DNA of 33,702 nucleotides from Terriglobia bacterium (lineage in GTDB: Bacteria; Acidobacteriota; Terriglobia; UBA7540), in contig JAIQGA010000063.1 of NCBI GenBank assembly GCA_020072925.1, forward strand, positions 1 through 33,702, written 5' to 3'. The notes under the pieces were generated by a model that was given only the letters and a program-made list of their open reading frames with translations, was not told the DNA's origin and made no database searches. Below are positions 6,206 through 23,514 of the stretch, piece after piece; the stretch's first letter is position 1, and every line of letters starts with the position of its first letter. Both the position numbers and the translations under genes were made by a program.

Positions 6206-7315
6206 TCAGAAGAACTTCCCCGTGTAATTGGTGGGATTGCTGAGCGTGCCGGTGCAATTAGAAAAACCCGGCTGGCAGCAGGGCGCCGAGTTCTCGCTAT
6301 AGCCGCACGCCCAACCGCCGAAGTCGCTTAGCACGTACACACCGGAATTGAAGTCCGGCGCCAGGGGCAGCACCATCACGTGGTAATTCCCCGGGAGAAC
6401 ACCCTGGATGTTGTACGATCCGTCCTGGTTGGTGAGGCCATCCACGACCACATTACCGGTAGTGGCGTCGATGACCACAACGTGGGCGGCAAAAGCCCCC
6501 GTTCCGTTCAGCGTGACGGCCCCAGCGATGCTGCCGGTGGAGGTACCGAAGGTCGCGGAAGGATAAAGGAAGGCAAGGCCAGCCGCATCATCCACGGCCA
6601 GGTTGCGCTGCTCGCTCTGGCCCGTATCACCAAAGGGGAACATGACGACGTGGGTGATGCCGCTGTGGTCGAGTCCGAGCATGTGGCCGATCTCGTGCGT
6701 GGCGACGGATTGCAGGTCGAAGTCACTGGCGAGCGCTGGCGTCGTAACCGAAAAATCCTGGCTGGGATTAAAAGCGATATCCGTGTCAATCAGGCATGAA
6801 GGAAGCGGACACGAGTGGGTCGTTGTGTTGTTCCCTACGGTGCAGGTGTAAGTGTTATTGGGAGGGGTCCCAAACGTCGTAACCACGTCGGTAAAGGCGA
6901 TCGTTCCGGTCGAGAAATCCACGGCCGACGACGGGGTGAAGGAGAACACATTCAAACAGTCGTTGACGTCCGGGTCGGTGAGTGTCGTTGTGGTGGGCCC
7001 CGTGACCGTCAGGGCGTTCAGAATTTGCCCGCCCAATGGCGTCATCGTCCAGGAATTGAAGGAGTTCTGGATCGCTGCCGTGACCTGTGCTCCGCTGGCC
7101 GGCATGCTTGGTGTCTGGAAGATATTATTCCCCACCGCGGGATTGATTTCCCAGGTAATGTTGCTGTTGGGCCACCGGGTGGGGACGGGTCCATTCACGT
7201 CGTCCTGTTCGGGGTTGTAGGCGAAGAGAAGCAACGCGTAGAGGGTCAACGCCAGGCCTGCGGTCACCAGGGCCATTACGCGCCTGCGTGCTTTGTGTAC
7301 TCGCTGCCGTCGCAT
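6206..7315 (-). CDS. Secreted matrixin-like zinc metalloprotease with CarboxypepD_reg-like domain
   Basis: This 369-residue protein has a signal or anchor segment (residues ~14-33), then a matrixin/M10-type catalytic domain. The zinc site is HEIGHMLGLDH at residues 207-217 (His207, His211, His217, Glu208), and Met225 in VVMFPF is the Met-turn. Residues ~255-330 (GSIAGAVTLNGTGAFAAHVVV to VLPGNYHVMVLP) form a CarboxypepD_reg-like beta-sandwich. The tail has several cysteines (ACGYSENSAPCCQPG). It is likely exported and degrades or processes extracellular protein. ATG 7315 has the ribosome site GAGGTAGGA, which overlaps the stop region of the preceding gene, so the two are translationally linked. 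An alternative start at Met14 would give a more typical signal peptide. Confidence 0.9.
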   Translation of the reverse strand: MRRQRVHKARRRVMALVTAGLALTLYALLLFAYNPEQDDVNGPVPTRWPNSNITWEINPAVGNNIFQTPSMPASGAQVTAAIQNSFNSWTMTPLGGQILNALTVTGPTTTTLTDPDVNDCLNVFSFTPSSAVDFSTGTIAFTDVVTTFGTPPNNTYTCTVGNNTTTHSCPLPSCLIDTDIAFNPSQDFSVTTPALASDFDLQSVATHEIGHMLGLDHSGITHVVMFPFGDTGQSEQRNLAVDDAAGLAFLYPSATFGTSTGSIAGAVTLNGTGAFAAHVVVIDATTGNVVVDGLTNQDGSYNIQGVLPGNYHVMVLPLAPDFNSGVYVLSDFGGWACGYSENSAPCCQPGFSNCTGTLSNPTNYTGKFF

Positions 7316-7319
7316 AGTC

Positions 7320-8171
7320 CTACCTCACTGTGACTACCAGCACTCGGCCGCGCAAGGACTCTTCCGCCGATTCCTCACTCACGGCCGAAATCGGGGCGCG
7401 CCCACCGCGAGTGGAGATTTCGGTCCAGTGGATTCGCCAATTATTCCCCACCCTCTCCGCTGCACCGTAAATGGCGCTGCCCGCCGGGATGACCACGCCT
7501 TGGTTGGGAAAAAGGTCGCGGGTGACGCGTCCTTCGATGTCCATGCGTCCGACGCCCTGAAACGCCGCGGAACGAATCTCCACAGGGATCGACAATCCCG
7601 AAGGAATCCTCAGCGGCGCGCCCACGCTTGAGGCAACGGTCTGCCGGAAAGCTTGGTAGGGCATGGTGGACCCGGCGACGCCCCCGGAGGTCTGCGCAGA
7701 TGCCGCTTGCCCCGAGAGCGTGAATCCCAAAGGCAGAATCACTCGTTCCTGACGGGTCGAAGCGTCTTGATATATGCGGAAGGCGCCTTGCGTCATCCCC
7801 ACCAGCAGATATCGGTTGGCGTGAATCGTGGAAGGTTGAAGGAAGAAGACGTACTCCGACTGTGGTCGCAGCAGCGCCGTGCCGGGCACCCACGATCGGA
7901 TGTGCCCCACCACGCCGCCCATTTGCTCGATGACGAGTGTCGGTCCGGCGTTCCCTTTGAGCGTCTGGCCGGACGCAATCGTCGTCAGTGTGACGATCTG
8001 AGTGTGTTGGGCGTTCCAGCGGCTTTCTTGATTGACCACACGCCCGCGCACGACGGTGCTGGAAGCCTGCGAAAGCTGGTCCAGGCTCATGCGCACCAGG
8101 GTTGTTGCGTGAACCGTGATGACGGCCCAGCCGGCCAGAAACGCGACGATAAGTAAGACTCGGATCTTCAT
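7320..8171 (-). CDS. Exported protein with VirB10/TrbI-like C-terminal segment
   Basis: This 283-residue protein begins with a clear signal peptide (MKIRVLLIVAFLAGWAVITVHA). The N-terminal half (SLDQLSQASSTVVRGRVVNQESRW and EYVFFLQPS) is a beta-rich domain commonly found beside bacterial matrixins. The C-terminal ~90 residues contain VIPAGSAIYGAAERVGNNWRIHWTEI. This resembles the beta-barrel of VirB10/TrbI proteins (IPAGT...G...), although no other type IV secretion gene is nearby. It sits between the lipoprotein gene (3 bases away) and the protease gene (4 bases away). An accessory, chaperone or inhibitor role toward the matrixin is plausible but not shown. Confidence 0.75.
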   Translation of the reverse strand: MKIRVLLIVAFLAGWAVITVHATTLVRMSLDQLSQASSTVVRGRVVNQESRWNAQHTQIVTLTTIASGQTLKGNAGPTLVIEQMGGVVGHIRSWVPGTALLRPQSEYVFFLQPSTIHANRYLLVGMTQGAFRIYQDASTRQERVILPLGFTLSGQAASAQTSGGVAGSTMPYQAFRQTVASSVGAPLRIPSGLSIPVEIRSAAFQGVGRMDIEGRVTRDLFPNQGVVIPAGSAIYGAAERVGNNWRIHWTEISTRGGRAPISAVSEESAEESLRGRVLVVTVR

Positions 8172-8174
8172 TGC

Positions 8175-8981
8175 TTATGGCCCCGTAATCAGCAACCCGC
8201 CGACGAAGGTAGCCAATTCGCCGCCAGAACTGGTTGCCATGATATTTCGCTGACCGGGCGTGGCGCTGGCGTTCACATTGATGTCGAAGGTCACGCAGGG
8301 TTGCGACGGTATCCCGGACTGCGCCTGAGTCATGCAGAATTGGGCCGACCCTGCGGAGATCGTTACATCCCCCGGATTGCCGCTGAACGAAAATGTATCG
8401 TTAGAACCGACGCCGTAGCCCACCAGAAAAAGCGTCAGCGTCCCGCCCGGCGCGGCCGATACACCCACAGCCCCACCCGAACAACTCCCGGAAGTGTCAC
8501 AAGTCCCCACGGCAACCAGTGAGAGCGGATTGATCGTGACTGTCGCCGAGGCTGATTTCGTCGAATCCGCCTGGCTGGTCGCGGTCACCGTCACCGAAGT
8601 CGATTGCGGCACGGTATCAACAGCAAAGTTGACGACCGGAGAGGGTCCCGGACCCGGTGTAACCGAAACTGTCTGTGGAGTAGTGGGAGCGGGAATTTGG
8701 GCAGAAGGCGCCGTGTACAAGCCGGAAGTGGAAATACCTCCATTACTCGAAGGGCTGATCGACCATGCCACGCCGGTGTTCGTGGTTCCCGAAACCGTCG
8801 CCGTAAACTGCTGTGTCGCGTCAAAACCCATAGACGCGGAGGACGGGGAAACAGTGATACTTACATTCGAAGGTGGAGGGTTATTACCGCCGCCACCTCC
8901 ACCACCACAACCGAGCGCCAGCCACGCCACACCTAGACCGGCTCCCAGCACCAGCGTCCTTAAGAGCTTCGCTCGCCGCAT
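8175..8981 (-). CDS. Ig-like (Big_2-type) lipoprotein
   Basis: This exported lipoprotein of ~268 residues has a basic N-terminus, a hydrophobic core and the lipobox LALGC followed by a run of glycines, which acts as a flexible tether. The Big_2/IPT-like beta domain follows, with VSITVSPSSASMGFDATQQF, GVAWSISPSSNGGIS, GLYTAPS and ATSQADSTKSASATVTI. A second beta domain occupies the C-terminal third (CTQ/CVTF cysteines). It is probably anchored in the outer membrane. I chose ATG 8981 rather than the upstream TTG 8999 because it gives a standard signal peptide. It is the first gene of a three-gene minus-strand operon with the secreted protein and the matrixin. Confidence 0.82.
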   Translation of the reverse strand: MRRAKLLRTLVLGAGLGVAWLALGCGGGGGGGNNPPPSNVSITVSPSSASMGFDATQQFTATVSGTTNTGVAWSISPSSNGGISTSGLYTAPSAQIPAPTTPQTVSVTPGPGPSPVVNFAVDTVPQSTSVTVTATSQADSTKSASATVTINPLSLVAVGTCDTSGSCSGGAVGVSAAPGGTLTLFLVGYGVGSNDTFSFSGNPGDVTISAGSAQFCMTQAQSGIPSQPCVTFDINVNASATPGQRNIMATSSGGELATFVGGLLITGP

Positions 8982-9217
8982 CGACCGGGCCTCACACAAT
9001 GGGTTTCCCGCCGTTCTCTCTCAACCTGGTAACTCAATCCTACTTACGTGCAGATCCGGCAGGCCGAAGGTGACCTGCTGAATCTTCCCGGCATTAATCT
9101 AAACGAAAATTCAATCCTCGGCAACTGCTGCGCATGACATTTTCGCAAAGTCCAGGACTTGACGGGAACTTTACGTCACAGCGCCTGAAAATCCACTCCT
9201 CCGCTTGTCCGCGACGA

Positions 9218-10267
9218 TCACTGCGGAGGATTGTCAGACGAAGAACCACTTGGACTGGAAGGCTGGCCAAACGTGTCACCCCCCTGAGAAGGTTGATTGG
9301 GTGGCGGCGTCGTCTGTCCCGACCCAAATCCGGACTGACCCTGACCTGTCCCGAATCCCGACTGTCCCTGGCCGGACGGATTCTGACTCGTGCCGAACCC
9401 GGGCTGACCCTGAGTCGGCGCAGCCTGAATTCCTGGGATTCCCGTGGGGAATCCCAGACCAATGAGATCAACTCCTATGAATTCCCACTCATCGTAGCGC
9501 GTGCGCTTGTTATAGACGCGGATGGATTGTTTGTGGCTGGTGGGCGCCACGCCCACGATGAACGCTCCCTGGATTTGATTCCCTGATCCGAAGAACGAGG
9601 AACTTCCCCCCGGCTGGCTGGACGAAGTCGTGCCTTGCGCATTGCTGGAATTCCCAAACGAGCTAGAAGTGCCCTCCTGGGTATCCGAAGTTGTCCCCGT
9701 GGTCGGCGTGGATCCTTGTGGCGATGTCGAGCCGCCCGACATGAAGGAAGTTCCTCCCGACGAGAATGAAGAACCTCCCGAAGAAAAGGACGACCCTCCT
9801 GACCCCATCGAAGATCCTCCAGGCATCATGGTCGAACCACCCGACCCCAGGGGAGAGGCTCCCGGCCGAAGAGGTTGCAGCTTGGAGTCCAGAAGAACGC
9901 CCATGGCGTTGGCGTGAATGAAGCGCCACTTCCCCTTCGGATCCAAGGGGTCGCGGTATTCCCTTCGCAAGAAGTGCATTCCGTTCGTCTCAAGCAATTC
10001 CTTTACGCTGGCCGGGTAGCGTTGAAATCGCCGGTGGAACAGGTAAATCGCCCACTGGTATTGGGTTCCCCGAAAGATGGTTTCTTCTTCTTTCTCGCGC
10101 TGGGCTTCCTGGTAGACGCTCGGCAACGCCGCCGTCAGGGAAACGAGCAGCAGGGTGACCATCATCATGATGATCAGGAGCGCGTAAGCTCGCTCGCCCC
10201 GGCGCTCCGCGCCCGCCTCACTGCGGAACGGGCAGTTGGACGGTCTGATGTGCTGCGGTATCCTCAA
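9218..10267 (-). CDS. Pseudopilin-like protein with Gly/Ser-rich low-complexity region
   Basis: This ~349-residue protein is the last gene of the secretion operon. Residues ~24-50 form a pilin-like hydrophobic helix (GERAYALLIIMMMVTLLLVSL), followed by an amphipathic stretch REKEEETIFRGTQYQWAIYLF and PASVKELLET, typical of minor pseudopilins. The canonical G/FTLxE cleavage motif with Glu at +5 is absent. After a globular part the protein becomes low-complexity: repeated GGSSFSSGG/GGS units and, near the C-terminus, GQGQSGFG repeats. TTG 10267 is the only sensible start; it overlaps the preceding gene by 50 bases. It may be a minor pseudopilin or an exposed tip/adhesive subunit; the function is inferred from context. 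Confidence 0.72.
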   Translation of the reverse strand: MRIPQHIRPSNCPFRSEAGAERRGERAYALLIIMMMVTLLLVSLTAALPSVYQEAQREKEEETIFRGTQYQWAIYLFHRRFQRYPASVKELLETNGMHFLRREYRDPLDPKGKWRFIHANAMGVLLDSKLQPLRPGASPLGSGGSTMMPGGSSMGSGGSSFSSGGSSFSSGGTSFMSGGSTSPQGSTPTTGTTSDTQEGTSSSFGNSSNAQGTTSSSQPGGSSSFFGSGNQIQGAFIVGVAPTSHKQSIRVYNKRTRYDEWEFIGVDLIGLGFPTGIPGIQAAPTQGQPGFGTSQNPSGQGQSGFGTGQGQSGFGSGQTTPPPNQPSQGGDTFGQPSSPSGSSSDNPPQ

Positions 10268-10787
10268 TCGTCACCACCGTGGGTGAAATCGAAAGCACTT
10301 TGTATTTCTGAGAGAACGATTCCCCTTCGTGCACGACGAACACGTTCTGCTGATCGTCCGAGATATAGGCTTCCTTGGTGCCGCTCGGGTTTTCGGAATA
10401 GCCCATGGCCTTCAGGGGCGGAGGCGGAGGTGGCGGTGGAGGGCCCGAGGGCTTTGTGGCATCAGCCGTGGCTTCCTTCGACTTGGGCGGAGGGGGTGGC
10501 TCGACAAATTCGAAGGGATTCCGTTTCAAATCGGGTGGGTCACGGTCGTCGAGCTTGGCTAACTCGTCGAGATGCACGACGGGGTCATAGCGCGCGAGCT
10601 CGTCCACGGCTGAGTTCTTCGACCTGCCGGAGGCGTCTCGCGCCGTGCTCGCGCGGCTTTGGGCGGGAGGGAGCACGGTCGCCGCGCGGGGGTGGTGAAA
10701 CTGCGAGATGAGGTTGATGATCAGGGCCAGGCACACCACTCCCAGCCCAATGCCTGCCCATTTCTGTGCTTGCCCGCTCAGCTTCAT
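10218..10787 (-). CDS. GspC/PilP-like inner-membrane protein
   Basis: This 189-residue protein has one membrane helix (residues ~10-30), a proline-rich periplasmic linker (residues ~96-125, with a long run of prolines), and a C-terminal domain at residues ~127-175 with AMGYSENPSGTKEAYI, VFVVHEGESFSQKYKVLSI and SPTVVTI. That layout matches GspC HR and PilP domains, which link the inner-membrane platform to the secretin. The same domain occurs four times in the protein at 18692-20740. The gene start overlaps the PilO-like stop by four bases (ATGA), so they are translationally coupled. Confidence 0.78.
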   Translation of the reverse strand: MKLSGQAQKWAGIGLGVVCLALIINLISQFHHPRAATVLPPAQSRASTARDASGRSKNSAVDELARYDPVVHLDELAKLDDRDPPDLKRNPFEFVEPPPPPKSKEATADATKPSGPPPPPPPPPLKAMGYSENPSGTKEAYISDDQQNVFVVHEGESFSQKYKVLSISPTVVTIEDTAAHQTVQLPVPQ

Positions 10788-11349: not shown

Positions 11350-11922
11350 TTACTCTCCACCTGTAAGGTACTGCGCCGTGCAGGCAACGTTCACAGGCGC
11401 GCTGCCCAGGCCGGCCTCGGCAAACCCCTGGTTGGTGAGTTCGATGTCCTTGAAATGGGGAGAGCTTTCCAGGTTGCTCAGAAACGCTTCGATGCCTTTC
11501 TCATCCTTGGCGCTCAGCACGATGCGCACGGCCAGCGTGCCCTGCCGGTCCTGAAGCGCCAAGCCATTCAACCGGACGTTATCCGGCAACATCCGTGTGA
11601 TCTGTGTGGCCAACTGGGTCAGGGAAACCTGCTTTTCGTCGATGAGCGAGTTCAGGAACTGCACTTCATTCAAGGTGACACGATACTTCGGCTGTTCCAG
11701 CTCCTTTCGCAGACTCGCCTCTTTGTCGCGCAGACTCTCTTCTCGGGCATGCTGCGCGACCAGCAGTGCATGCACGCCCCGGTAATCCCGGAACTGGCGC
11801 CACGTGGTGAGGGCCAGGAGGCCCAGGACGGCGAGACCCAGGACCGTCGCGGGCAAAGCCCAAGCCAGCGCGTAGCGGTCACGACGGCTGGGCGCCAAGG
11901 CCAGATTGAGCGAAACTCTCAT
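11350..11922 (-). CDS. PilN/GspL C-terminal-like assembly protein
   Basis: This 190-residue protein begins MRVSLNLALAPSRRDRYAL, a PilN-type N-terminus that in type IV pili binds PilM. It then has one membrane helix (LPATVLGLAVLGLLAL), a heptad-rich segment (AQHAREESLRDKEASLRKEL) and the characteristic NEVQFLNSLIDEKQVSLTQL and LPDNVRLNGLALQDRQGTL motifs. The ATG at 11922 overlaps the PilM-like stop by four bases (ATGA). A longer in-frame extension to 12105 is only overlap with the PilM gene. If PilM is really broken, this protein lacks its cytoplasmic partner. Confidence 0.87.
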   Translation of the reverse strand: MRVSLNLALAPSRRDRYALAWALPATVLGLAVLGLLALTTWRQFRDYRGVHALLVAQHAREESLRDKEASLRKELEQPKYRVTLNEVQFLNSLIDEKQVSLTQLATQITRMLPDNVRLNGLALQDRQGTLAVRIVLSAKDEKGIEAFLSNLESSPHFKDIELTNQGFAEAGLGSAPVNVACTAQYLTGGE

Positions 11923-12904
11923 GCGTTCTGCCTCGCATTGGCCAGTAGCCCCGCGAAGGTCAACCCGAATCGCTTCACCAGGTCCTGTTCTCCCGGTGAG
12001 AGGGCGGCCGCGTGGACAGGACCGCTGGAGAGGGTCCGCACGTCCCGACCGAGTTCGCGGGCGATGTCCCCGGCCAAGTCTGGCGAGCCCAGGGGCCGCG
12101 AGCAAAGCCAGATGTCAGCCAAGTCCAGCATCATATGATCGCGACACGTTGCCACCACGCGTCCCGCTTCCCGCGCTACTTCCGCGCGCTGGGCTTCCGG
12201 AGTTCCCTCCGTCAGCACGCGGCTCCTCCAGAAATGCAGGCGGTCGTCGGCGACCACGGCCGTCGTCACGGACCCGCCGCAGACGTGAATGAGGAGCTGG
12301 CCTGAGCGGCGGTCGCCGGCCAGCAGGGGCAGCAGCGCCAAAGTCGCGGGAAGAATCAGGGCCGCTCCGCCATTGATGCCTTGCAGCAACCCCTCGTACT
12401 CAGCCAGGACGGCCGTCGATGCCGCCAGCGTCAAAACTTCCACCGCCGATTTAGCGCGCGACAGAACTTCGTAAGAGACCCGAACGTGCTCCGGCTCCAA
12501 GGGTAATACCTCGCGCATGCGCCAGCGGGATCGGGAAGGGTTTCGAACTGGAGGAGCGCCACGCGCACCGCGGCGTCAGGGAGCAACAACCCCAAGCGCC
12601 CGCCGCCGTTACCGACCGCCTCCGCCACCTGGTTGACCGCCCGCCGGACTCCGGCAACGTCAACGACATTCGCGTGATTCACGACAGCGGAGAGCCAACC
12701 CGGCTGCAACTCCCGCACACTGATGGAGCGCACCTGATGCCCCGAGCCGTCCAGTCGGGCGCCAGCGACAAATTCTTGTTGAAGCTCCAGCGCCACCGAT
12801 GGCAACACAAAGTTCGCCGAGCGGCTTGCGCCTCCTCCGCCCAACCGTTTTTTCAAGGCTGCCCAATCCATAGTGATTGTATGACGCTGCCCACTCAGAT
12901 TCAT
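11919..12904 (-). pseudogene. PilM-like actin-fold protein, split by a frameshift
   Basis: Two overlapping reading frames together make one PilM-like (ATPase, actin-fold) protein of ~330 residues. The N-terminal frame (12904 to about 12530) contains GLLLPDAAVRVALLQFETLPDP; the C-terminal frame (about 12525 to 11919) continues WRMREVLPLEPEHVRVSYEVL, INGGAALILPATLALLPLL and GQLLIHVCGGSVTTAVV. In intact relatives these parts are separated by about eight residues in one frame, so a small deletion plus frame change near 12521-12530 is likely. The start overlaps the GspE stop (ATGA at 12904); ATG 12871 (MDWAALKKRL) is an alternative. It could be a real lesion or a sequencing or assembly error. Confidence 0.8.
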
Positions 12905-16372: not shown

Positions 16373-16838
16373 CTAAAGCAGTCCCCTGGGATTTAGTGTA
16401 AACGTCGAATACATTCTCGCCGCCCCACGAACGCGAATCGGCATCGTCTTGCATGGAGCGCAGACCCCAATCCGTCTGGCCGGTCATCGGATCCACAGGA
16501 ATTTTCCGCAGGAATTTGTATTTGGCCGTCGCAGCGCCCTTTACGGGCACACCCTTCACCAGTGTGTCGAGGTCGGGCGGATAGCCAAAAGACTCGACCT
16601 TCACCGGAATCAGTCCCATATCCGAGAAATACTTATACCGATCGATGGCCGTGCGCATTTCGCGCAGATCGCGGCGCAACTCCACTTCCCGCTCGCGCTG
16701 AATTTGCACGCGCGCCAACGGTAACGCAATACTGGTGAGCAACAAGAGGATGGTAATGGCGGCGATCATCTCCACGAGCGTAAATCCGCTCTCCACGCCT
16801 GACCGGGAAGCCGTCCTTCCAGTTCTCATGGCCTTCAT
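16347..16838 (-). CDS. gspG: GspG-like pseudopilin
   Basis: This 163-residue prepilin has a short basic leader and the motif GVESGFTLVEMIAAITIL. The prepilin peptidase would cut after Gly18, with Phe+1 and Glu23 at +5. The helix continues into REREVELRRDLREMRTAIDRYK, then the GspG-like C-terminal part with KIPVDPMTGQTDWGLRS and DVYTKSQGTALDGSSYADW. It is the likely major pseudopilin, although the neighbouring gene is very similar in type and either may be the major subunit. ATG 16838 overlaps the end of the secretin gene by four bases. No prepilin peptidase gene is in the window. Confidence 0.92.
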   Translation of the reverse strand: MKAMRTGRTASRSGVESGFTLVEMIAAITILLLLTSIALPLARVQIQREREVELRRDLREMRTAIDRYKYFSDMGLIPVKVESFGYPPDLDTLVKGVPVKGAATAKYKFLRKIPVDPMTGQTDWGLRSMQDDADSRSWGGENVFDVYTKSQGTALDGSSYADW

Positions 16839-18670
16839 GGACGTTGTTCCCCTGGAGGCGGTGACGGTTCCTCAGGGGTACCGACCGGCACTCCCGGGGC
16901 AGCCTCGGGAATCTGTGGAAGCGGCGCGCTCGGCCCACCGCCAACGGCTACATTCGCACCGGCACTACCCGACTCCGGCAGACGGATGACCCGTGGGGTC
17001 AGCATGACCAGGACTTCGGTATCAATTCGTTCATGGTGTTCTTCGGAGAAGAGATAGCGCAGCAGGGGAATCTGGGAGAGTCCCGGCAACCCGGACTTTG
17101 ACGTGCTGTCTTGGCTCTGAATCAGTCCGCCCAGCAAATTCACTTCACCTTCCTTCAGTCGGATGTCGTGCTCGATGCGGCGCTGACCGAAGGAAGGCTC
17201 GCTGAAGCCGCCAACATTGATGGGCGCACCCAGCGAGGAAATTTCGATAGCCGCGTGCAGGGCCACTTCCCCGTTCGAGAGCAGATGCGGCGTCAGATCC
17301 AAAATCACGCCCACATCCTGAAATTGGAATTGCGTGCTCGCCAGCAAACCGAACCCACCGCTGCCGCTCACGCTTCCCCCAAACGAGGGCAGAAAACTAC
17401 CCGTGGCATAAGGAATTCGCTGCCCGATTCGCAACTTGGCTGTCTCGCCATCCGTCACGCGGACCTGAGGATTCTGGAGGATGTGGGTGTGTGAGTCACC
17501 GAGCAAGGCTGAGGCCGTCGCGCCCGGCAGGACCACGCTGAAATCACTGGTACTTATCTTACCCAAACGGTTCAGCGGGAGGAAGGGGATGGAGGTTCCG
17601 CCCGTGGTGGTTGCAGAAGTCGTTGGATTGAAGCCTATAGCTCCCACGAGGCCCGTTGTGTTGGCCCCAGAGACTGAAACCGGCTGGGGAGTTAACCCCA
17701 AATCCTGGACGCGGTCTCGATCAGCCTCGACTACTGCGACGTCTATCAAGATTTCCGCCTTTCCGCGGTCCAAATCACGGATGAGCTGCTCTGCCGCCTG
17801 AACCTTGGCGGGGGTATCACGAATAATGATGGCGTTGGCATCTGGATTGTCGATAATCCGTTGCACTCCCAAGACCTGCTTGATGGCCGTGGTAATCGCG
17901 GTACGGTTCTGAGCCGTCAAAGGGTTCATCAGGTAAATGGTCCTGACAACTTCCTGGTCGTAATCGCGATGGTTGGTAGGGGTATCGGGAACCACTAAAA
18001 AGGTATTGGGCGTGAGCGGCCGGTAGAAACTCTTCGTCTGCATGCAGAGGACGTTAAGGACATCTTCTATCTTGATGTCAGAAAGATCCAGCGACACCTG
18101 CTTGGGGGCGAAATCCGCGGTGAAGGCAACATTCATCCCTGCCAGCTTGGCGACGGTTTCAAATGCTTTCCTGCTATCGATGGGGCCAAGATGCACGCGT
18201 GTTATCGGCCCCTGCGGGAATGGATTTAGCTTTACAGGTCCTGGAGCGGCCTCCGCCTCGGAGGCCTTAAGCGCTTGTTTGAGCTTCGATTCGCGAGCTT
18301 TCTTTGCCTCCGCTTGCACGGCCAAGACCCTTGCCAACTCCTGGGCGGCCGCCTCATTGCTGGGATCGATGCTCGCGGCTTTCTGGAACTCTCCCGACGC
18401 CTCCTCCAAGCGGTTCAGTTTCAGTAACTCGCGTCCGCGCTTAAGATGAGCAAGTGAGGCTTGGGTTCGAACGAGTCTCTCATGGAGCTGAATGGCGGCG
18501 TTTCCCGGCTGGTATTGAAGAGCCTTTTGGTAATCCACCAATGCCGTGTCCCAGTCCTTGCGCAACTCCGCTTTGCGACCTTGCTGGTAGGCGATGTTGC
18601 CCCCCGCGCAACCCCAACAGAAAACAAGGGCCACCAGGACCACCAGCGAACGGATCTGTCTTCTGAGCAT
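16835..18670 (-). CDS. gspD: GspD/PilQ-type secretin, TPR-containing lipoprotein
   Basis: This 611-residue outer-membrane secretin has a signal peptide and lipobox-like FCWGC (Cys21). TPR repeats follow at residues ~25-130 (DWDTALVDYQKALQYQPGN, LEEASGEFQKAASIDPSN). N0/STN (FETVAKLAGMNVAFTADF) and N1 domains come next, then the secretin domain with VAVVEADRDRVQDLGL and the end motif LVMLTPRVIR. The tail is proline-rich. N-terminal TPRs on the secretin itself are not part of classical GspD and could replace a separate pilotin/PilF function. The start overlaps nothing; 21 bases separate it from the four-repeat protein upstream. It overlaps the pseudopilin gene by four bases. Confidence 0.95.
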   Translation of the reverse strand: MLRRQIRSLVVLVALVFCWGCAGGNIAYQQGRKAELRKDWDTALVDYQKALQYQPGNAAIQLHERLVRTQASLAHLKRGRELLKLNRLEEASGEFQKAASIDPSNEAAAQELARVLAVQAEAKKARESKLKQALKASEAEAAPGPVKLNPFPQGPITRVHLGPIDSRKAFETVAKLAGMNVAFTADFAPKQVSLDLSDIKIEDVLNVLCMQTKSFYRPLTPNTFLVVPDTPTNHRDYDQEVVRTIYLMNPLTAQNRTAITTAIKQVLGVQRIIDNPDANAIIIRDTPAKVQAAEQLIRDLDRGKAEILIDVAVVEADRDRVQDLGLTPQPVSVSGANTTGLVGAIGFNPTTSATTTGGTSIPFLPLNRLGKISTSDFSVVLPGATASALLGDSHTHILQNPQVRVTDGETAKLRIGQRIPYATGSFLPSFGGSVSGSGGFGLLASTQFQFQDVGVILDLTPHLLSNGEVALHAAIEISSLGAPINVGGFSEPSFGQRRIEHDIRLKEGEVNLLGGLIQSQDSTSKSGLPGLSQIPLLRYLFSEEHHERIDTEVLVMLTPRVIRLPESGSAGANVAVGGGPSAPLPQIPEAAPGVPVGTPEEPSPPPGEQRP

Positions 18671-18691: not shown

Positions 18692-20740
18692 TCAGCGGGG
18701 CGCAGCACCATTATCCGGCATCGGCGAAGACAAGTTCAAGCCGCGCTTCCCTAACCTGCGTTCGTCCAACAACTCCGTACTCCTTTGGGGCATACAGCCT
18801 CCCCCTCCCATCATGCGAGGGGATTCTTGCGCCATCTCAGTCCCATCTAGAGACGGATATCTTGTTATGATGCAGTTTTGGAGCGGGCCGCGTTGCTCAG
18901 TCCGAGCCCAGTTTGATTCCTGGTCGACTTGCGGAATCAACTGGTCGGGAGATACTTCTACGACTTCGACCACCGACGCAGACATATCAATTACCTTGAA
19001 CCTCTCCGCGAAAACTTCACCTTTGTGAACGAGATAAACGCTGTCTCCATTCGCAACGACTGCTTCGTACTCCCCGTTGGGCTTCTGAACGTAGCCAAGG
19101 GGCTTCCACAATTGCACGGCTGGGGTCGGCGGTGCGCTTCTCACCGGATTCGAGGCAGTAACTCTGGTCAGAGGCTCCGGAGACCCACGAGCCACGGAAC
19201 CGCGTAGGCCTTTGGGAGGCGCCCGTTTCGCGAGGCGTGATTGTTTGGCATCTTCACGATGGGCCGGGAGATCTGTGCCTCTCATCCGACCTTCGCGCAA
19301 TGAGGCAACGAGTCCCTTAACTAATCGATCCGGAGGACGCTGAGAACCGTTGGCAGTCCCCAGGCTGGGTTGCTCGTCTGCCATAGCCGCAAGCTCCGGA
19401 GTTCCGGAGCTTTCGGGCGGCTGAGGAGAAAGGTCTTCCGCAATGACGGCAAACGGGGAGACCCTTAGTGCCTTAAACTTATCAGCAAAGACCTCGCCCT
19501 CGTGAACAACGTAAACCTCATCGTTATGGTCAAGGATGGCTTCTACCTGGCCATTTGGTCGTTGCACGTAGCCAATTGCCGTTAACATGACCGGCTTGGT
19601 GTCGATACGTGTTGTCTGGTCCGAGGCATTGCGCACCGGAGGGCTTGAGTTGATTAATTTTGGCACTATTACTGCGCCGGGTCCGTTCAAGTGCGCAATC
19701 AGTGAGGCGGGAACATAGGCGTTTGGCTCAGGCCTGGCTACCCTGGGGCTCACCAGGCCGGAAACCCTCCGAAATATGTCAGATCGAACTTGGGCAGCAA
19801 CGAAGGTCGGAGTGTCCGGCAGGGCGTTCAGAGCAAGGACCTGCCTCGGCAGGACATCTCCCTGTGAATTGGCCTGGAGCCGGTCGAGGGCACGAGGATT
19901 CGCTCTTGCGGCACTAAGTTGTTGGGATGCCTTTGAATTGCCAGCCATGATCGGCTCACGCCTCACGAGTTGGATGCTTTCACCATCGGCAATTACGGCC
20001 ACGACTTCCCCGTTCTCCTTCTCCACGTAACCCAATGGTTGTGACAGGGGTGGAGGCAATTCCCCGCGGGGTGGCAATGGGGTCTTGGTTGAACCCTTAG
20101 TCGACTGAAGAGCTTGCCGGCCGGCGCTTCCTTCTTGAGCCTCCGCCACTTGGATAGCCTGCCTCGTCCGCCTCACCTCGTGGGGCAGACCATTTCCTGC
20201 CGCTGGCACCTCGACCACTTCCACGCTCGATGGCGATATCTTCAAAACCTTGTACTTATCCGCGAAGATCTCGCCTTCGTGTAGCACCTGGACTTGTTCC
20301 CCTTCCCCAAGGACTGCTTCCACGGTCCCATCGGGTTTCCGCACGTAGCCAAGTGGTGTCAAAGTGAGGGTTGTCGGTGAAGGGTCATGGGCCGGTGGAG
20401 GTGGGGGACATGCTTGAGAAACCGTTGTGGAAGCGGGGGACGGCCCTTTCGAGCCGGCGATCGCAACTGCTAGCAATGGAGCTCTGGCACGAGCTGTGCG
20501 TGCTGCCCGAGCACCTCGATTGATACTCACACCAAGTGATTCGCGCCGCCCGGCTTCTCGTCTTGCGATAGGGAAAAGTCCCGACCACCCGCGCGAACCC
20601 GAAGGAGCGGATTCTTCAACCTCAAGGAGCGTGATTTGTCGCGGCAAACTCGCGTCCCCGGTAAGATTAGGGAAGCCTAAGAGGCAGGCGGCGGCAGTTA
20701 CCCCTCCCGCAAACTTCGCGAAATGTCTCACGGCTTTCAT
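18692..20740 (-). CDS. Protein with four GspC/PilP-like repeat domains
   Basis: This 682-residue protein opens the secretion operon. Residues ~10-28 are a signal or membrane segment. Four copies of one domain can be seen: 129-178, 236-264 (shortened), 388-437 and 547-597. Each follows the pattern LGYVxKPxGxxEAV...VxxVHEGExFADKFKVxxISPxxV. The same domain is single in the GspC/PilP-like protein at 10218-10787. Between repeats are proline- and glutamine-rich linkers without predicted structure. In GspC and PilP this domain docks on the secretin N-domains. A protein with several copies could crosslink secretin subunits or span the periplasm. I know no named family with this architecture. The last ~85 residues are unlike the rest. 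Confidence 0.72.
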   Translation of the reverse strand: MKAVRHFAKFAGGVTAAACLLGFPNLTGDASLPRQITLLEVEESAPSGSRGWSGLFPIARREAGRRESLGVSINRGARAARTARARAPLLAVAIAGSKGPSPASTTVSQACPPPPPAHDPSPTTLTLTPLGYVRKPDGTVEAVLGEGEQVQVLHEGEIFADKYKVLKISPSSVEVVEVPAAGNGLPHEVRRTRQAIQVAEAQEGSAGRQALQSTKGSTKTPLPPRGELPPPLSQPLGYVEKENGEVVAVIADGESIQLVRREPIMAGNSKASQQLSAARANPRALDRLQANSQGDVLPRQVLALNALPDTPTFVAAQVRSDIFRRVSGLVSPRVARPEPNAYVPASLIAHLNGPGAVIVPKLINSSPPVRNASDQTTRIDTKPVMLTAIGYVQRPNGQVEAILDHNDEVYVVHEGEVFADKFKALRVSPFAVIAEDLSPQPPESSGTPELAAMADEQPSLGTANGSQRPPDRLVKGLVASLREGRMRGTDLPAHREDAKQSRLAKRAPPKGLRGSVARGSPEPLTRVTASNPVRSAPPTPAVQLWKPLGYVQKPNGEYEAVVANGDSVYLVHKGEVFAERFKVIDMSASVVEVVEVSPDQLIPQVDQESNWARTEQRGPLQNCIITRYPSLDGTEMAQESPRMMGGGGCMPQRSTELLDERRLGKRGLNLSSPMPDNGAAPR

Positions 20741-21005: not shown

Positions 21006-21680
21006 CTAGTTATTTTCGGCGAGTCGGTGATTGACGGCGAAGAGCGCCAACTCCAGGCGGTTGGAGACGCCCAGCTTATCGAAGATGTTAGTGAGGTGGT
21101 GCTTAACAGTTTGCTCGCTGATGTGGAATTTCTCGGAAATATCCTTGTTCGTATACCCGGCCACGATCGCCGATACAATTTCAAGTTCCCGGGGCGTGAG
21201 TCCGAACCTTTTCTTCCCCGATTCTTCATCCGGGAGCGATCTCAGGTCGCGCAGCGTCATGACCAGATCTGAAACGGCGGCGTTGCCGACCCAGTACTGA
21301 CCGGCCCTCACGGCGCGGATGCTCTTGAGCAGCAGGCTGGTGGCGGACTCTTTCAGGACCACACCGCGGGCGCCAAGCTGCAGCGCCTCCAGGGTTTGCC
21401 GGGGCTCGACCACGGCTGCCAGCACAATAGTGCGAGTATGGGGTGCGGCCCTGGCCACGTCGCGCAAAGCCTGCATGCCCGGGACCCGTGGCATCGCCAG
21501 GTCGAGCAGCAGGATATCCGGCTTGAGCTGAGCGGCGAGACGGAGAGCCTCACCGCCGTCCGCAGCTTCGCCCACGACCTGGAAACCCGACTCGGCCTCC
21601 AGGAGCTTGCGGAGGCCGTCTCGGAAGATCGCATGATCGTCCGCGATGAGAATGCGAATAGTCTCGTCTTTCTTATCCAT
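21006..21680 (-). CDS. NarL/FixJ-family response regulator
   Basis: This 224-residue regulator has a receiver domain with acidic pocket DD at 14-15, phosphoacceptor Asp60 (LLLDLAMP) and Lys110 (VVLKES). A LuxR-type HTH follows at residues ~158-215 (LTPRELEIVSAIVAGYTNKDISEKF, EQTVKHHLTNIFDKLG). It is the partner of the histidine kinase upstream, whose gene it overlaps by eight bases. Being directly upstream of the secretion operon, it may regulate it, but no binding site can be shown. Key residues are intact. Confidence 0.93.
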   Translation of the reverse strand: MDKKDETIRILIADDHAIFRDGLRKLLEAESGFQVVGEAADGGEALRLAAQLKPDILLLDLAMPRVPGMQALRDVARAAPHTRTIVLAAVVEPRQTLEALQLGARGVVLKESATSLLLKSIRAVRAGQYWVGNAAVSDLVMTLRDLRSLPDEESGKKRFGLTPRELEIVSAIVAGYTNKDISEKFHISEQTVKHHLTNIFDKLGVSNRLELALFAVNHRLAENN

Positions 21681-23514
21681 GATTCTTCTGCGGAACGAGA
21701 ATTTCCAGCCGCGCGCCCCGGCCAGGAAGCGACTCGATGCTCAAGGCCCCGCCCAGCGCGCGAACCCGCTCCTTGATCACCACCGGTCCCTTGCGCGCAG
21801 TATCCAGTTCCCCCTGGCCAAGACGCCCGGAAAAATCGAACCCGCGGCCGTCATCGTCAATCACCAGCTTCCAGAACCCATCCTGCACCTCAAAGCGTAC
21901 CACGACATTGCGCGCGCCGCTGTGCCGCCGGACGTTGGTGAGTCCTTCCTGGAGGATCCGCGCCAGTTCCCCGCAGAAGTGGGGCGGAAGCCGAACATCC
22001 TCGAGAGGGGAGACAAAGCGCGCCGCAATGCCGGTGTCGCGCCCGAACTTGTCCACAGTTGAGGCAAGATATTCCAGGAGTTGTCGGGGGCCCAGTTCCA
22101 TCGCCTTCATCTGCTGAATTAACTCGCGCAAGCTCAAAACCTCGTGGTGCAGAAGCTGCTGAATGCGGGACAACTCCTCAGGCAGCAAGGTTGCGTCCGG
22201 GGGATGCTGCCGCAAGACGGACACCTCCATCTCCAGAGCAATCAACGACTGGATCACGCCGTCATGAAGTTCGCGGGCTACCCGGGCGCGTTCGGCGGCG
22301 CCGGCGTGTGAGCGCAGCCGGTCAGAAAGAAGGACGCTGTTGAGAACTGGAGAAAGCTGTCGCACAAATGCCTGGAGGAAGCGCGCCGCGGTCACGCGGC
22401 TGCACCCGGGCGAGGGCTCCAGCAAGAACAATCGGCCCGCCCACTCCGTCCCGAAAACAACCGAGGCGGCCAACAGTTGATTGGACTTCAGCGCATTCAG
22501 GAAATCCTGTGGCGGGACCCAGGCATTGTTATCGACGCGCTTGCCCGCCGCGTCCAAAATCAGGTTCTGGTTTGGCGCGCCATCGCCGGGTGCCAATCCT
22601 CGCCGCGTAAACCACACCTCACCTGGGGCCTCGAAAAGGTAAGCAGAGCGCTGGTCCGTATCCAGTTCCGCCCCCTCGAGACTGGCTTCGGAATCCGTTT
22701 CCCCTTGCACAACTTCCCATAACGAAGTCTGCCTCGTGCTCGTCTCCTGCAAGACAAACAGAGCCCGAAGCGCACCGAAGAGCGAGCGAGTCTCTTCCAG
22801 GGCGGCCCGAAGGGCGGCGCGCATTCCAATTTCCCTTTGGATCCTCCCGATAATGGCGGCGATCCCGGTCGCCTCCGCGCGCCAGCGTTTTTCCTGCTCG
22901 GCCAGGAATCCCAGCAGATATCCTGTCATCAGAAGATACACGCCACGCATCAGGATGCGGTTAAACGTAAAATCGCCCAGAACAGCCCGGACGGAAGGCG
23001 GCAGAAACACTTCCACCGCCGCCTCGATGATGAAAAGCATCAATGCCAACCCCGCGGTCATCAGGGTTTCCTGCAATCCCCAGCGGTACGCCGCGGCGAG
23101 TAGGACGAATACGTTGAAAATAAAGAAGGGGCTATTGGGACCCGCGGTGAAAAGGGAGATGATTGCCGGCCAGATGATGTCCACAAGGTGCAAGCCCAGA
23201 CACAACGCGGGGGTCACGCGCTGGCGATCGTGCAACCACGCAAGGACGGTCACGCTGTGCAGCGCGTAAAGCGCCAGCAGAGTGTAAGTCAGGGCGGGGT
23301 GGCGTGCGGGTTCGGTGGGGTCGAGCCAAATGGCGATGAGCGCCGACACCCCCAGAAAGGCGCGCGCGCTGGCCAGGACCTGCTCGACACGAAATCCCTC
23401 ATTGGGGTCTACGGTCGCCCGTAGCCGCTCGAAGAGCCGGGGAGTGACGCCCCACCTGAAGAACAAGTCCGCGTCCTTAATCCGGCGAGCTATACTCCTG
23501 GCAATATCACCCAT
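21673..23514 (-). CDS. Membrane sensor histidine kinase (HisKA_3 type)
   Basis: This 613-residue kinase has an N-terminal membrane region of about five to six helices between residues 50 and 205. A GAF-like region follows (~225-395), then a HisKA_3 domain with His417 in ARVARELHDGVIQSLIAL. The HATPase domain has the N-box LTNVRRHSGA and the G-box DDDGRGFDF, ending with GGALSIESLPGRGARLEI. HisKA_3 kinases pair with NarL/LuxR-type regulators, as here with the overlapping downstream gene. The membrane domain suggests sensing in or at the membrane; the ligand is unknown. ATG 23514 has no good Shine-Dalgarno. Confidence 0.93.
   Translation of the reverse strand: MGDIARSIARRIKDADLFFRWGVTPRLFERLRATVDPNEGFRVEQVLASARAFLGVSALIAIWLDPTEPARHPALTYTLLALYALHSVTVLAWLHDRQRVTPALCLGLHLVDIIWPAIISLFTAGPNSPFFIFNVFVLLAAAYRWGLQETLMTAGLALMLFIIEAAVEVFLPPSVRAVLGDFTFNRILMRGVYLLMTGYLLGFLAEQEKRWRAEATGIAAIIGRIQREIGMRAALRAALEETRSLFGALRALFVLQETSTRQTSLWEVVQGETDSEASLEGAELDTDQRSAYLFEAPGEVWFTRRGLAPGDGAPNQNLILDAAGKRVDNNAWVPPQDFLNALKSNQLLAASVVFGTEWAGRLFLLEPSPGCSRVTAARFLQAFVRQLSPVLNSVLLSDRLRSHAGAAERARVARELHDGVIQSLIALEMEVSVLRQHPPDATLLPEELSRIQQLLHHEVLSLRELIQQMKAMELGPRQLLEYLASTVDKFGRDTGIAARFVSPLEDVRLPPHFCGELARILQEGLTNVRRHSGARNVVVRFEVQDGFWKLVIDDDGRGFDFSGRLGQGELDTARKGPVVIKERVRALGGALSIESLPGRGARLEILVPQKNHG

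Follow-up and report, generated by a model that had tools for sequence, protein, structure and literature searches.

Three and a half GspC/PilP-like domains in a putative inner-membrane tether for an acidobacterial secretin

A soil acidobacterium encodes, at the head of a secretion operon, a protein hereafter called REP4, with orthologues in close relatives, whose three and a half repeats are, by sequence and model, HR domains, with the secretin-docking fold of GspC and PilP. From sequence, structural models and analogy with known docking proteins, I put at roughly 60% the probability that REP4 is an auxiliary inner-membrane tether of a PilMNOP/GspEF-type system, within the type IV filament superfamily, and that its HRs bind the secretin by its N0 domains.

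REP4 and its repeats

In the window, by which I mean the whole 33,702-nucleotide stretch of DNA that was analysed, the list of open reading frames and their translations give REP4 as an intact frame of 682 amino acids (18692..20740, minus strand). Together with the AlphaFold2 model, they delineate an N-terminal anchor, long disordered linkers, HR1, a half-HR2, HR3, HR4 and a C-terminal tail. The transmembrane anchor (aa 7-23, FAKFAGGVTAAACLLGF; 20672..20722, minus strand) was placed by Kyte-Doolittle hydropathy, by a helix spanning residues 2-21 in the model and by alignment with the anchor of PilP. Its hydropathy peaks at 1.52 in the window protein, against 2.0-2.6 in relatives, and this weak helix could be a cleaved signal peptide instead. 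In the full-length model confidence is confined to the anchor helix and the repeats, the latter mostly at pLDDT 85-95, while 435 residues, linkers included, lie below 50.

HR1 (aa 125-177; 20210..20368), HR3 (aa 383-437; 19430..19594) and HR4 (aa 546-595; 18956..19105), all on the minus strand, are predicted to be full domains of the GspC-HR/PilP type, HR3 and HR4 being modelled at a pLDDT of about 93. HR2 (aa 230-262; 19955..20053, minus strand), which reads LGYVEKENGEVVAVIADGESIQLVRRE, comprises strands 1-3 only, and these three strands are modelled at pLDDT 69-78; it ends after the third strand, without the VHEGE...K half, and it is truncated in every relative that carries this repeat. The repeat count of REP4 is therefore 3.5, not four. 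The repeats were scored with an independent HMM built from 50 HR domains of relatives, from which the window and all multi-repeat proteins of the family had been left out. It gave 54.4 bits for HR1, 13.3 for the half-HR2, 61.4 for HR3 and 54.3 for HR4, and the best domain in 2000 shuffles of REP4 reached 3.8 bits; the repeats are real and not chance matches. An earlier note on this DNA had counted four repeats, each with the pattern LGYV...VHEGE...K. It was right that the repeats exist and that three of them are whole, but its second repeat is a low-scoring half domain that lacks the latter part of the pattern. The note had also seen the same domain once in a protein of the same operon that it called GspC-like, and it is indeed there (189 aa; 10218..10787, minus strand), as a single HR (aa 127-176) in a PilP-like protein with an RNPF motif.

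Comparison with known families by sequence placed the repeats near PilP. The HMM-HMM comparison with PilP that the earlier note had proposed, run with hhalign between the repeat profile and the PilPs that truly belong to type IV pili in this clade, gave an E-value of 5e-5 and a probability of 67%. Those PilPs carry an RDPF motif, most have a long PilQ-sized frame directly after them, and they match the Myxococcus PilP structure 3jc8 at 2.6e-6 in a comparison with the PDB. The Pfam models PilP (PF04351) and T2SSC (PF11356) matched no protein above cut-off in the 41 genomes searched, the best T2SSC match, at an E-value of 0.005 and below cut-off, being HR1 of the orthologue in genome G018. Since the operon PilP and the clade's true type IV pilus PilPs likewise fall under the cut-off, these models are too narrow here, and the miss bears on them and not on the HR fold. 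The Pfam scan of REP4 itself returned only sub-cut-off matches (THAP4_heme-bd, DUF22), which were judged to be chance. No significant match was found between the repeat profile and PDB sequences, and the operon PilP profile gave low-complexity matches only. A REP4 query of genome contigs found no relative, and a plasmid search found none either; the matches to a secretin query of genome contigs were all Acidobacteria MAGs, including 'gp13 AA73'.

The fold was assessed on an AlphaFold2 model of HR1 made with a 77-row alignment of homologous domains (mean pLDDT 90.5, all beta). Foldseek alone ranked GspC (3oss) first, at an E-value of 0.2, and VIA-align then set the HR family clearly apart. The best structural alignment was to chain 3oss_C (Z 7.2, 2.1 Å over 54 residues), followed by the PilPs 3jc8, 2lc4, 2y4y, 2y4x, 2ivw and 4av2 (Z 7.1-6.0), the HR of PulC (6hcg, Z 6.3), one Dot/Icm chain (Z 6.1) and LspC (7oio, Z 6.0). 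After these ten best rows (Z 7.2-6.0) the next falls to 4.5; according to the tool's own caveat a Z below 8 can mean a common arrangement, and here the top block belongs almost wholly to one functional family. The repeat model is thus a two-sheet beta-sandwich that superposes on both GspC-HR and PilP. SPOR and SH3, the unrelated families that had been considered, gave no Pfam match in REP4 and are not among the structural matches listed. The GspC/PilP-like character of the repeats is accordingly upheld, as far as sequence profiles and models can tell.

Operon context and orthologues

On the minus strand the genes run in the order histidine kinase, response regulator (both named from their sequence), REP4, TPR-secretin, two pseudopilins, GspF, GspE, PilM, PilN, PilO, PilP and a last pseudopilin-like protein. 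REP4 stands at the head of the operon, as had been claimed: a promoter-like site (TTGAAC-18-TATAAT, a consensus match only) lies upstream of it at 20905-20876 on the minus strand, and the secretin gene starts 21 nt downstream of it. The secretin, the presumed docking partner (16835..18670, minus strand; Pfam Secretin 2e-36, TPR_2 6.7e-9), bears N-terminal TPRs, and its N0-like domain, the presumed HR-binding site (aa ~153-245; 17936..18214, minus strand), was located by a phmmer alignment to Myxococcus PilQ that begins at aa 153.

Several features of the neighbourhood may be recorded here. The kinase and its regulator, which is of the LuxR type, occupy 21006-23514 of the window. A similar pair precedes the secretin gene, without a multi-HR gene, in genome G004 (L087) and at L198, as if the multi-HR gene had been inserted or lost there. 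The PilM frame of the window (11919-12904) is broken by a frameshift near 12520, the N-terminal part lying in one frame and the rest in another; PilM is one intact frame in relatives, and the break is either a sequencing error or a real loss. Downstream of the operon, 6206-8999 encodes a 369-aa protein with a signal sequence that is probably a matrixin-like metalloprotease, a secreted protein with no role assigned and a lipoprotein with Ig-like repeats, which are candidate substrates of the secretion system.

REP4 orthologues occur in all 12 genomes of three genera from a single family of the Acidobacteriota: one genome of g1, nine of g3 and two of g4. The link to the secretin operon holds in these relatives: in each of the 11 readable junctions the gene adjoins the TPR-secretin gene on its upstream side, at a spacing of -4 to +27 nt. 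Upstream of the secretin no HR gene was present in the eight further genera of the family for which that region was read. Of the genomes sampled in other families of the class, nearly all give a single HR match and two give more than one, on separate contigs where listed; the only long frame checked among them (G089, 587 aa) has a single HR. In the survey of repeat number that the earlier note called for, HR2 is a half in every relative that has it, and HR3 is lost in the L041 orthologue. In L039 the repeats are spread over two frames, and in L204 two frames overlap, which may be a sequencing error. In G003 the gene consists of two frames, the second with its own N-terminal hydrophobic segment, which argues against a strict need for all HRs to be on one chain.

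Other HR proteins of the family

No HR protein other than PilP was found in the REP4 carriers besides REP4 itself. In genera g5, g7, g10 and g13 HR-bearing proteins occur that are not linked to the operon on the contigs read. The four that were scanned (from g5, g10 and g13) have two AMIN domains before one HR, with Pfam E-values down to 1e-22; they are encoded at L044 8105-9592, L045 8102-9430, L048 8312-9727 and L072 359-1723, in sister genera without a multi-HR protein, and three of the four show an RN(P/L)F motif before the HR. In g11, g15 and g16 an N-terminal coiled coil or membrane segment precedes one HR. Single-HR proteins of this build, with a long low-complexity middle, lie elsewhere in the genome (L067 6943-7872, L076 9725-10762, L074 1-1389). 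In Myxococcus PilQ, AMIN domains precede N0 and bind peptidoglycan (PMC9239104); here the secretin has TPRs in their place, and it is an HR protein that carries the AMINs. Since single HRs in this family also occur on unlinked proteins of the AMIN-AMIN-HR and coiled-coil-HR kinds, the HR looks like a mobile module for docking. This wider pattern in the sister genera suggests that in Acidobacteriota it serves as a general plug joining various anchors to secretins.

One further protein (L049 3223-4527, genus g12, 434 aa) contains one HR-like repeat that is recognisable and two that are degenerate (LGYV, LGYV, LGFV) and has no adjoining secretin gene on its contig. It is possibly a diverged or relocated relative of REP4.

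Proposed docking on the secretin

The HRs of REP4 would bind the neighbouring TPR-secretin at its N0 domains, as do those of GspC, PilP and GspB. With several docks on flexible leashes, one chain could grip several secretin subunits at once and so gain avidity, and REP4 would tether the secretin ring from the inner membrane and help to place it, much as GspB/OutB does with a single HR. GspB/OutB, an HR protein anchored in the membrane, binds N0 and both anchors and targets the secretin, and photo-cross-links suggest that one N0 can meet two HRs (PMC9239104). The HR of GspC binds the secretin N0 mainly by its first three strands, with strand augmentation (PMC3169554). Strands 1-3, which make up most of this contact, are exactly those retained in the half-HR2, which so fits a minimal docking module, on the assumption that a lone half-sandwich folds. 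A more specific version can be offered only tentatively: a single chain would sit on several adjacent subunits of one ring, the half-HR would be a minimal N0-binding module made of strands 1-3, and the fixed linker lengths would set the reach between docks. The N0 sites of the ring would have to be shared between REP4 and PilP.

The residue that follows GY or GF in the repeats is V or I in REP4 (26/26) but mostly S, N, T or A in the operon PilPs, and in REP4 it lies about where Ala133 of GspC sits, buried in the N0 contact. Given this difference near the contact, REP4 and PilP may not bind the same site alike, and the HRs might even bind something other than N0, such as another HR, the pseudopilus, a secreted substrate or the cell wall, in which case REP4 would be a periplasmic scaffold or substrate gatherer. 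The long disordered linkers and the conserved-length tail, to which no function is assigned, would suit such a role. I nevertheless regard it as unlikely, since the known HRs of GspC, PilP and GspB contact secretin N-domains (PMC3169554, PMC9239104) and the REP4 gene always stands directly before the secretin gene.

The first 180 residues of REP4, comprising the anchor and HR1, align with the whole of the operon PilP at an E-value of 4e-16, in one pairwise comparison made without a low-complexity filter, so that REP4 has the look of a paralogue of PilP to which more HRs have been added. In a phylogenetic tree the REP4 repeats fall outside the PilP clade (support 99/95). A recent duplication from the operon PilP was rejected, the PilPs forming one clade apart from all REP4 repeats. 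The repeats group by position in g3 and by gene in g4 (L040), which suggests homogenisation or separate rounds of duplication, though the tree is limited by its few columns. Every one of the 42 operon PilPs and of the 18 type IV pilus PilPs has the R[ND]xF motif, located between anchor and HR; none of the 11 REP4 rows has it. The alignment with PilP, anchor included, is what one would expect if REP4 were another PilP, added to the platform as a subunit linking PilN and PilO with the secretin, its further HRs being redundant copies; the missing motif, the position of the repeats in the tree and the retention of PilP in the same operon make this distinctly improbable. Lacking the motif of every PilP compared, REP4 is probably a platform-independent tether rather than a platform subunit.

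Linkers, tail and selection

The linkers before and between the repeats of the window protein are 128, 52, 125 and 110 residues long, and the same linkers measure 117-174, 56-74, 107-121 and 106-110 residues in the four-repeat relatives (the last being 48 in L038). The C-terminal tail has 87 residues in the window (18695..18955, minus strand), ending in MPDNGAAPR, and 85-87 in the four-repeat relatives measured (30 in L004, where it is cut by the contig end). Linker identity falls to 22-42% in most pairs: the linkers diverge in sequence, while their lengths are largely kept. The net charge of the linkers, considered as a wall-binding feature, is +20 in the window but varies from -17 to +17 in relatives, and was therefore rejected as a general property. 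The tail ends, in the window (18695-18730) and in relatives, with an (M/A)xDN- or GN-type motif, to which g3 adds a final aromatic residue.

In the two closest pairs omega is 0.04-0.38 for the HRs (0.12 and 0.26 for the half-HR2) against 0.36-0.57 for the linkers, so the HR domains are, by this estimate, under strong purifying selection; dS is saturated in the most distant pairs. That REP4 is a recent, decaying tandem duplication without function, its linkers junk, might be read from the fast-diverging linkers, the truncated HR2 and the loss of HR3 in L041, but is very hard to sustain, being largely refuted by these selection data and at odds with the conserved linker and tail lengths and with retention in every genome of three genera.

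Comparison with known systems

To my knowledge, docking proteins carry one HR each. No tandem or multi-HR protein was found described in the open literature searched, subscription papers lying outside its scope; the HR domain and an HR-bearing auxiliary anchor are already known, and it is the many-copy arrangement that was not found described. If the more specific, tentative reading is true, one chain of REP4 would tether a secretin multivalently, a kind of docking for which no description was found in the literature searched. The manner and the stoichiometry in which inner-membrane platforms hold secretins are unsettled. As a naturally occurring chain of 3.5 HRs whose leashes keep their lengths, REP4 offers a ready tool for studying multivalency, N0 occupancy and competition with PilP; its half-HR, being conserved, hints at the part of the domain that is enough for docking.

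The earlier view that REP4 is not a standard part of a type II secretion system or pilus holds. GspC shares with REP4 the HR fold (Z 7.2 to 3oss) and an inner-membrane anchor, but has one HR followed by a PDZ domain or a coiled coil, and no PDZ match was found in the Pfam scan of REP4. PilP, whether of type IV pili or of the same operon, shares the HR fold, the membrane anchor and homology over anchor and HR1, but has one HR, the R[ND]xF motif and a mostly polar residue after GY, where REP4 has 3.5 HRs, no such motif and V or I. The closest parallel in function would be GspB/OutB, a known HR-bearing secretin anchor of gammaproteobacteria and betaproteobacteria that is paired with GspA or GspS (PMC9239104). 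Like REP4 as modelled, it combines a single membrane anchor, a variable linker, an HR of the GspC/PilP fold and a C-terminal extension, and it is an auxiliary of the secretin, as REP4 probably is; it has one HR against 3.5 in REP4, and the likeness proposed here is one of working.
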